A DNA stretch of 64,000 nt from a bacterium (GTDB lineage: Bacteria; Sysuimicrobiota; Sysuimicrobiia; Sysuimicrobiales; Segetimicrobiaceae). Positions 55,803-57,577 of this stretch are shown in pieces. Every line of letters begins with the position of its first letter. Within the stretch, counting starts at the first letter, position 1. The notes beneath the pieces were generated by a model. The model made no database searches. It was not told where the DNA came from and saw only the letters and a program-made list of their open reading frames with translations. A program made the translations under genes and the position numbers. Location: positions 185,422 to 249,421 of the forward strand of contig DATGFS010000048.1 in assembly GCA_035308905.1 (NCBI GenBank). The letters are read 5' to 3'.

Positions 55803-55831
55803 TTGACACCCCGGGTGGTGTATGCTAACGT
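55803..55831 (+). promoter_or_regulatory. Promoter of the SAM-riboswitch operon
   Basis: TTGACA at 55803-55808 and TAACGT at 55826-55831 with a 17-base spacer, placed 21 bases before the riboswitch. The -35 is perfect and the -10 is weak; a TATGCT at 55821 is spaced too short for this -35. Confidence 0.5.
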
Positions 55832-55851
55832 AGGCACCAACTGAATAGCAA

Positions 55852-55964
55852 CTCTTATCCAGAGTGGTCGAGGGACGGGCCCGATGACACCCGGCAGCCT
55901 ACCAGGTTTTCCCGCCTGGTGTGGTGCTAAATCCCGCGGAAGAACCAATTCCGGTAGATAAGAG
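55852..55964 (+). promoter_or_regulatory. SAM-I (S-box) riboswitch aptamer
   Basis: The P1 stem strands CTCTTATC (55852-55859) and GATAAGAG (55957-55964) are perfectly complementary and enclose the S-box core: AGAGTGGTCGAGGGACGGGC, then CCGATGACACCCGGCAGCC, a P3 hairpin (ACCAGG...CCTGGT), and GTGGTGCTAAATCC, ending in a P4-like stem. These are the diagnostic conserved blocks of SAM-I. SAM binding is expected to favour the downstream terminator and lower expression of the following operon. Confidence 0.95.
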
Positions 55965-55970
55965 GGAGAG

Positions 55971-56003
55971 ATCCCCCTCGGAGTTGGGAGGGGGATTTTT
56001 GTT
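55971..56003 (+). terminator. Riboswitch expression platform, intrinsic terminator
   Basis: ATCCCCCTC (55971-55979) pairs with GAGGGGGAT (55988-55996) and is followed by TTTTGTT. This is the classic terminator for an S-box. The ATCC-type left arm lies directly after the P1 3' strand, as expected for antiterminator competition. Confidence 0.9.
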
Positions 56004-56043
56004 GCGTCCGGATGCGGACGCGGCACCAGATGGGAGGGGAGAG

Positions 56044-57276
56044 ATGGGAGCAACGGAGCTGGTGTGTCGCGAGTGTGGCCGGCGGTACGCGCTCGATCCG
56101 ATCTTCGTATGCGATGCCTGTTTCGGCCCGCTTGAAGTGCAGTACGATCACGACGGGCTGAACGGTGAGGCGCTGCGGACGCGGATACTCTCCGGTCCGG
56201 CGTCGATCTGGCGGTACCAGGATTTTCTTCCGGTCCAACGCGTACCGGCTTGGGACCTCGCTCCCGGCTACCACCCGCTCGTTCGGGCCGAACGGCTCGG
56301 CCGGGCCCTCGGGCTCCGCAACCTGTACCTCAAGAACGATACCCGCAACCCCACGTGGTCGTTCAAGGACCGCGTCGTGGCGTGCGCGCTGGCCGCGGTG
56401 CACACGTTCAAGTTTGACGTGGTGTCGTGCGCGAGCACCGGCAATCTGGCCAACGCCGTCGCCGCGCACGCGGCGAAGGCCGGCCTCCGGGCGGTCGTCT
56501 TCATCCCGACGGGCCTCGAGCGGGCGAAGGTCATCGCCACGTCGGCCTACCGCCCGATGATCGTCGAGGTGGACGGCACGTACGACGACGTCAACCGGCT
56601 CTGCCTCGAGATCGGAGAAGAGCACCGCTGGGCGATCGCCAACGTCAATCTGCGGCCGTACTATTCCGAGGGCGCCAAGACGCTCGCGTTCGAGGTCGCG
56701 GAGCAGCTCGGCTGGCGCGCGCCGGACCGCGTCGTGGTCCCGGTCGGGTCGGGCAACATGTTCGTGAAGATCCAGAAGGGCTTCGAGGAGTTCCAGCGGC
56801 TCGGGGTGATCCCGCCGCACACGGTCCGGATGACCGCGGCGCAGGCGGAGGGATGCGGCCCCATCGCGACCGCCTACCACGCGCAGACCGAGACCGTGGT
56901 CCCGGTGATCCCCAACACCGTTGCCAAGTCGCTGGCGATCGGCAACCCGGCCGACGGGCCGTACGTGCTCGACATCGCGCGCCGGACGGGCGGGGCCGTC
57001 GAGGCCGTCTCGGACGAGGAGACGGTCGAGGCGATCCGCCTGCTCGCCGAGACCGAAGGAATCTTTACGGAGCCGGCCGGCGGCGTCACGGTCGGTGTGC
57101 TGCGCAAGCTGGCGGTCGCCGGCGCGATCGATCCGGACGAGACGGTGGTCGCCTACATCACCGGGATCGGGCTGAAGGCGCTCGAGGCGGTGGAGTCGCG
57201 GCTCGAAGCGCCCGTGCGGATCAAGCCGACGCTGGCCTCGTTCGAAGAGCGGGTGCTGCAGGCGGCGTCCGCGTAG
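56044..57276 (+). CDS. thrC: Threonine synthase-like PLP enzyme under SAM riboswitch
   Basis: 410 aa fold-type II PLP enzyme. An N-terminal zinc-ribbon-like Cys set (CRECGRRY and CDACFG) precedes LKNDTRNPTWSFKDR with the Schiff-base Lys near 107, ASTGNLANAVAAHAAKAG for phosphate/PLP binding, and VVPVGSGNMFVKI. Threonine synthases convert O-phosphohomoserine to threonine. Here the gene is preceded by a SAM-I riboswitch and followed by a CysO-like carrier, neither of which is expected for threonine synthesis. An alternative use of O-phosphohomoserine for homocysteine formation is proposed in the findings. ATG 56044 has GGGAGGGGAGAG upstream. Confidence 0.9.
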   Translation: MGATELVCRECGRRYALDPIFVCDACFGPLEVQYDHDGLNGEALRTRILSGPASIWRYQDFLPVQRVPAWDLAPGYHPLVRAERLGRALGLRNLYLKNDTRNPTWSFKDRVVACALAAVHTFKFDVVSCASTGNLANAVAAHAAKAGLRAVVFIPTGLERAKVIATSAYRPMIVEVDGTYDDVNRLCLEIGEEHRWAIANVNLRPYYSEGAKTLAFEVAEQLGWRAPDRVVVPVGSGNMFVKIQKGFEEFQRLGVIPPHTVRMTAAQAEGCGPIATAYHAQTETVVPVIPNTVAKSLAIGNPADGPYVLDIARRTGGAVEAVSDEETVEAIRLLAETEGIFTEPAGGVTVGVLRKLAVAGAIDPDETVVAYITGIGLKALEAVESRLEAPVRIKPTLASFEERVLQAASA

Positions 57277-57301
57277 ATCGGGATTGGAGGAGAGAGTTCT
57301 C

Positions 57302-57577
57302 ATGGCGGTACGTGTACGGATTCCCACGCCGCTGCGCCAATTGACGAACGGCGAGCGGTTGGTCGAGGTCGGCGGGGCCGACCTCGCGCAGGCGATCGAC
57401 GAGCTGGACCGGCGATTTCCCGGCCTTCGCGCGCGGATCGTCGACGAGCAGGGTGAAGTGTTGCGGTTCGTCAACATCTTCGTCAACGAGCGCGACATCC
57501 GGTTCCTCGGCGGGCTCCGGACGCCGCTCGCCGACGGCGCGGAGGTGTCGATCGTCCCCGCAATGGCCGGCGGTTAG
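57302..57577 (+). CDS. CysO/ThiS/MoaD-type sulfur carrier protein
   Basis: 91 aa beta-grasp carrier. The C-terminus ends PAMAGG, the di-glycine that is adenylated and thiocarboxylated. The segment [14 protein letters not shown] strongly recalls the mycobacterial cysteine-synthesis carrier CysO (RFVNIYVN and a PAVAGG end, from memory). It lies 25 bases after the threonine synthase-like gene and has GGAGGAGAG upstream of ATG 57302, so it belongs to the SAM-riboswitch operon. No ThiF/MoeB activator or Mec-type protease is in the window. A MoaD role is possible but less fitting to the context. Confidence 0.88.

Follow-up and report, generated by a model that had tools for sequence, protein, structure and literature searches.

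The locus at positions 55,803 to 57,577 of the analysed stretch of DNA (64,000 nucleotides, hereafter called the window) is most probably a MetM/MetO homocysteine synthesis operon under feedback control by SAM, a reading which is given a probability of about 0.88 from sequence comparison. The first-pass annotation had proposed that a threonine synthase-like enzyme makes homocysteine from O-phosphohomoserine and the thiocarboxylate of a small carrier protein. Membership of the enzyme in the MetM clade supports this proposal, which is equivalent to the published MetM/MetO reaction. Since MetM/MetO of Streptomyces has already been published, the proposal corresponds to a described function (2024) and introduces no new chemistry; the locus extends the system to a poorly known phylum that mostly lacks the usual routes to homocysteine, and the genomic evidence for it is unusually clear.

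Organization of the locus

The features of the locus are the following.

55803..55808, + strand: perfect TTGACA, candidate -35 element, with candidate -10 sequences TATGCT or TAACGT nearby
55852..55964, + strand: SAM-I (S-box) riboswitch aptamer, RF00162, full length (1-108)
55970..56005, + strand: intrinsic terminator predicted by folding, 11-bp hairpin at about 55970-55998, then TTTTTGTT
56044..57276, + strand: metM-like gene, threonine-synthase-related PLP enzyme of 410 amino acids (TIGR00260, PALP domain PF00291)
57302..57577, + strand: metO-like gene, ThiS/MoaD/CysO-type sulfur carrier of 91 amino acids (PF02597; CysO structures 4n6e/3dwg)

The aptamer was matched by the RF00162 covariance model with 81.7 bits (E 1e-17, gathering score 44.4) and is the sole SAM-I riboswitch in the host genome. 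Eleven of its base pairs have two-sided changes among 20 copies from the phylum. The G+C-rich terminator hairpin lies between the aptamer and the ATG of the metM-like gene, 80 bases downstream of the aptamer end, as is typical of SAM-I expression platforms. Simple scans neither called the TTGACA at 55803-55808 as a promoter nor included the hairpin in their list of terminators. The full S-box aptamer with terminator directly 5' of a thrC-like gene, described in the first-pass annotation, was recovered with the covariance model and by folding, including the TTTTTGTT tail, and the start originally given for the locus, 55803, coincides exactly with the first base of TTGACA.

The ATG of the metM-like open reading frame is preceded by GGGAGGGGA, a strong ribosome-binding site. 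The predicted protein has an N-terminal C-x2-C...C-x2-C motif and a PLP lysine within the motif NPTWSFKDR. Its score with TIGR00260 (thrC), a model which gives no separation of MetM from ThrC, is 302.3 bits with a cut-off of 167.1. As MetM scores so far over this equivalog cut-off, public genomes probably list it as threonine synthase. Structure prediction (pLDDT 92) gave the threonine synthase fold, with threonine synthases as the closest solved structures and the SAM-bound Arabidopsis enzyme as the best match. Both the model score and the predicted fold thus agree with the original description of the gene as threonine synthase-like.

The metO-like gene begins 25 bases after the metM-like gene and is followed by ligA. 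Its product ends in AMAGG (Gly-Gly) and has the CysO proteins of Amycolatopsis and Mycobacterium tuberculosis as its best relatives in the PDB, in accordance with the GG-ending, CysO-like carrier that had been noted at this position. The carrier is linked to metM and not to cysM, and its partner enzyme belongs to PF00291, not to the PF01053 O-acetylhomoserine sulfhydrylases. A carrier tree intended to part MetO from CysO (92 columns, one CysO row) was uninformative. Elsewhere in the window, positions 31548-32699 encode a class-V aminotransferase which by sequence is a NifS/IscS-like cysteine desulfurase, a possible source of sulfur for the carrier, and positions 60450-61865 contain an open reading frame of 471 amino acids without a Pfam match; similar-looking open reading frames occur near metM in relatives (e.g. 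L039:3754-4221).

Methionine, threonine and cysteine genes of the host genome

The genome from which the window originates (G000) has 4.0 Mb and is 97 % complete. Among named genomes the closest is that of 'Terrabacteria group bacterium ANGP1', which belongs to the same family and to a lineage placed in Sysuimicrobiota by GTDB. Contig C22 carries hom-thrC-thrB-lysC, an operon with a second, canonical ThrC, so the window gene is not required for threonine. The genome had no match for MetX even at E 1e-3 and none for MetA, and HcyBio/DUF39 was found neither there nor in any of the 43 genomes of the phylum that were surveyed; control searches for these proteins were positive in several named genomes. 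HcyBio/DUF39 was consequently rejected as an alternative route to homocysteine (0 of 43 genomes), as was MetX as a hidden route in the host genome; a few relatives had substantial or partial MetX matches (252 bits in G033). The first-pass annotation had treated a full conventional homocysteine pathway in the host, together with a role of this enzyme in threonine synthesis only, as evidence against its proposal; what was found is a genome without MetX, MetA or DUF39 and with a separate canonical hom-thrC-thrB operon.

The host genome also encodes two full-length PF01053 (CGS-like PLP) enzymes, on contigs C23 and C21, so a redundant route to homocysteine is possible. One of them scores between methionine gamma-lyase and O-succinylhomoserine sulfhydrylase and the other meets the cut-off for cystathionine beta-lyase. 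A MoeZ-like E1 with ThiF and rhodanese domains (P0006) is encoded on contig C9. On contig C42 (L163:2931-5040) there is a second carrier, 51 % identical to that of the window, followed by a weakly SbnI-like protein, similar over the N-terminal 85 residues only, and then by a CysM-like enzyme. SbnI belongs to the O-phosphoserine synthase family, and from its gene content the cluster is possibly an O-phosphoserine/CysO route to cysteine, parallel to MetM/MetO.

Distribution of metM and SAM riboswitches in the phylum

Orthologues of metM with 57-92 % identity were found in 37 of the 43 phylum genomes, and 35 of these 37 had a further ThrC-family match over the cut-off. The comparison of gene neighbourhoods suggested in the first-pass annotation tied metM to the riboswitch within the phylum and to the carrier across phyla. 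The 43 genomes contain 40 SAM riboswitches, almost always one each, and for 30 of the 40 a metM gene in the same orientation follows at a distance of 61 to 4786 bases. Three more are at a contig end in genomes in which another contig opens with metM or thrB-metM. The pairing of riboswitch and metM is non-random. In family f1, metM follows the riboswitch directly, and in families f2, f4, f5 and f7 thrB, sometimes with hom, is located between the two; two of the intervening thrB genes were tested and scored 258 and 242 bits with TIGR00191. The enzyme making O-phosphohomoserine is thereby placed under the same SAM control in these relatives.

The four genomes of genus g11 lack metM, and there the only riboswitch precedes metY and then an acetyl-type metA (e.g. 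L167:709-3029, G011:C1); these four are also the only genomes of the 43 in which MetA was found. The exchange of metM for metY-metA was probably a single evolutionary event and is therefore counted as one strong observation rather than four. One of the other riboswitches (L133) is upstream of a homocysteine-methyltransferase gene and the remaining two are in genome G012.

No PF01053 enzyme was found at E 1e-30 in G035, which is 99 % complete and has metM. In families f5 and f7, metM has no detected adjacent carrier, and genomes of this kind have carriers elsewhere. At the f5 and f7 loci L045, L049 and L051-L054, thrB-metM is followed by GNAT-like and uracil-DNA-glycosylase-like genes; the riboswitch is upstream in all of these except L045, which is on a short contig. 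In several relatives (L151, L152, L154, L155 and L160), second carriers are found beside a PF01053 gene and one of the cystathionine-beta-synthase/cysteine-synthase type, a neighbourhood which suggests carrier-linked reverse transsulfuration.

Separation of MetM from canonical threonine synthases

A maximum-likelihood tree was made from 70 proteins, including 50 MetM rows and 17 canonical ThrC proteins, three of them with solved structures. The window protein and the MetM homologues formed one clade (SH-aLRT 100, stem of 1.6 changes per site), with the 17 ThrC proteins outside. The clade has members from the phylum of the window, Chloroflexota, Actinomycetota, Cyanobacteriota, Nitrospirota/Nitrospinota, Aquificota and an Armatimonadota-labelled genome, and it includes the orthologue from Microcystis. 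MetM of Streptomyces albulus was not among the rows, and the clade is tied to it through the reported 51.6 % identity between MetM and the ThrC of Microcystis aeruginosa (PMC12172450).

MetM and ThrC were discriminated at 90 % or more by 26 alignment positions. In all 63 MetM proteins compared, including that of the window, Thr88, Ser155, Asn157, Arg160, Asn188 and Ala194 of the Thermus thermophilus enzyme are replaced by Leu135, Asn202, Arg204, Tyr207, Ser236 and Lys242, respectively, so that the ThrC-invariant residues Thr88, Ser155, Asn157, Arg160 and Asn188 are not kept in the window protein. Several of these residues presumably contact the substrate in the T. thermophilus complex, and the substrate site of MetM therefore looks remodelled relative to that of ThrC.

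The metM-metO pair in other phyla

The carrier adjoins metM in 75 of 80 named loci across phyla, and seven phyla or more, Aquificota among them, have kept the two together. Besides families f5 and f7, the loci without a detected adjacent carrier include L175, L176, L200 and L250. The SAM riboswitch was present at 12 of the 80 named loci, in the phylum of the window, Chloroflexota, Actinomycetota and one Nitrospinota-labelled genome. None was found upstream of metM in cyanobacteria or Aquificota, nor in most of the Nitrospirota/Nitrospinota loci. The actinomycete Nonomuraea gerenzanensis has the order riboswitch-metM-metO. A search of plasmids gave one clear MetM, from Nonomuraea, and otherwise haloarchaeal ThrC at 32-36 % identity. 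In three Aquificota genomes (L178, L179 and L231), metM is followed by metO after 24-33 bases, and a metagenome-assembled genome labelled Aquifex aeolicus (L176) has metM without an adjacent carrier.

Comparison with known systems

The Streptomyces MetM reportedly takes O-phosphohomoserine and MetO thiocarboxylate, and metO is said to be located just downstream of its gene. According to PMC12172450, MetM is a homocysteine synthase of Streptomyces (Hasebe et al. 2024, Appl Environ Microbiol 90:e01247-24) and a SAM riboswitch is present upstream of S. albulus metM. S. albulus thus resembles the window in having a sulfur-carrier gene after the gene of the ThrC homologue and the riboswitch upstream of both. 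S. albulus MetM/MetO reportedly converts O-phosphohomoserine to homocysteine, as is proposed for the pair in the window; the window is from a different phylum, in which related families place thrB and hom in the riboswitch operon. The M. aeruginosa ThrC is in the same clade as the window protein and a metO-like carrier gene adjoins its gene too. Unlike the window gene, however, it has no SAM riboswitch, and it has been reported mainly as a threonine synthase and threonine deaminase, both activities having been observed in vitro, with an unidentified peak near methionine but no clear production of homocysteine (PMC12172450).

The canonical short ThrC enzymes of T. thermophilus (1uim), A. aeolicus (2zsj) and Bacillus subtilis (6cgq) share the fold, the PLP lysine motif and about 35 % identity with the window protein, but have different invariant residues around the substrate and belong to a separate clade. 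CysO-CysM of M. tuberculosis resembles the window in combining a GG-ending carrier with a fold-type-II PLP enzyme that acts on a phosphorylated amino acid, but it makes cysteine from O-phosphoserine, and the host genome has its own separate CysO/SbnI-like/CysM-like cluster. The HcyS pathway of Wolinella succinogenes uses a MetY-type (PF01053) enzyme, O-acetylhomoserine and a protein thiocarboxylate as sulfur donor. The donor would be common to both systems, while the window has a ThrC-type enzyme and, putatively, O-phosphohomoserine as substrate. PMC5764234 speaks of a 'protein thiocarboxylate pathway'.

Alternative explanations and proposed mechanism

The window protein scores over the curated thrC cut-off, its nearest solved folds are threonine synthases, with the SAM-bound Arabidopsis enzyme as the best, and its Microcystis orthologue turned O-phosphohomoserine into threonine and deaminated threonine in vitro (PMC12172450). 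It could accordingly be one more threonine synthase, or combine synthase and deaminase activity, with SAM control balancing the use of O-phosphohomoserine and the carrier serving other sulfur pathways. This is considered highly improbable, since the genome already encodes a canonical ThrC along with hom and thrB, there would be little regulatory logic in shutting off threonine synthesis by SAM, the riboswitch moves to metY-metA where metM has been lost, all 63 MetM proteins have the six ThrC-invariant residues replaced, and metM is almost always linked to the carrier. Production of homocysteine mainly from O-phosphohomoserine by the PF01053 enzymes of C23 and C21, through plant-type transsulfuration or sulfhydrylation, with MetM in a minor or specialised role, also appears quite unlikely. 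Both enzymes are full-length and one meets the cystathionine beta-lyase cut-off, but the genome's single SAM riboswitch controls neither of them, G035 manages without any PF01053 enzyme (E 1e-30), and the PF01053 genes which in several relatives adjoin a carrier and a cystathionine-beta-synthase-like gene point to reverse transsulfuration.

A variant of the MetM/MetO reading, and compatible with it, is that MetM makes homocysteine with free sulfide and that the carrier is an accessory or a regulator rather than an obligatory donor. The metM loci without a detected adjacent carrier (f5, f7, L175, L176, L200 and L250) are in its favour. It is nevertheless regarded as unlikely, because metM and the carrier stand together at 75 of 80 loci, the genomes without an adjacent carrier have carriers elsewhere, and MetO thiocarboxylate is the donor reported for Streptomyces (secondary source PMC12172450). 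Together with the in vitro activities of the Microcystis enzyme, the members lacking an adjacent carrier suggest that some MetM enzymes could have two functions, or take sulfide.

According to the MetM/MetO reading, ThrB from the separate hom-thrC-thrB-lysC operon would provide O-phosphohomoserine, and a MoeZ-type E1 with a rhodanese domain would adenylate and thiolate the C-terminal Gly-Gly of MetO. MetM, a PLP enzyme of fold type II, would then remove the phosphate at C-gamma and add the thiocarboxylate sulfur there, and release of MetO would yield homocysteine, to be converted by methionine synthase and then MetK to SAM. At high SAM the riboswitch would stop transcription, and O-phosphohomoserine would be routed to threonine via the separate ThrC. 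We infer that the reaction occurs in the host organism, that the P0006 E1 is used and that MetO is the sulfur donor.

Implications

It seems reasonably likely that MetM/MetO is widespread and probably old rather than a peculiarity of Streptomyces, that it is the main route to homocysteine in this phylum, where it often shares SAM-riboswitch control with homoserine kinase, that it is the unassigned route in Aquificota, and that the host genome has two parallel routes of the same design, for cysteine and for homocysteine, in each of which a fold-type-II PLP enzyme acts on a phospho-amino acid with the thiocarboxylate of a dedicated carrier. Many genomes label MetM as threonine synthase, with the result that their methionine pathway looks broken, and spotting a riboswitch- or carrier-linked MetM corrects such annotations. 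The exchange of metM and metY-metA under the same riboswitch provides natural evidence for the function. Price et al. 2018 (PMC5764234) name A. aeolicus among organisms that lack every known route to homocysteine. From the gene order in three Aquificota genomes, metM-metO is put forward as a lead, and as a concrete candidate for the route that these authors count as undiscovered in Aquifex.
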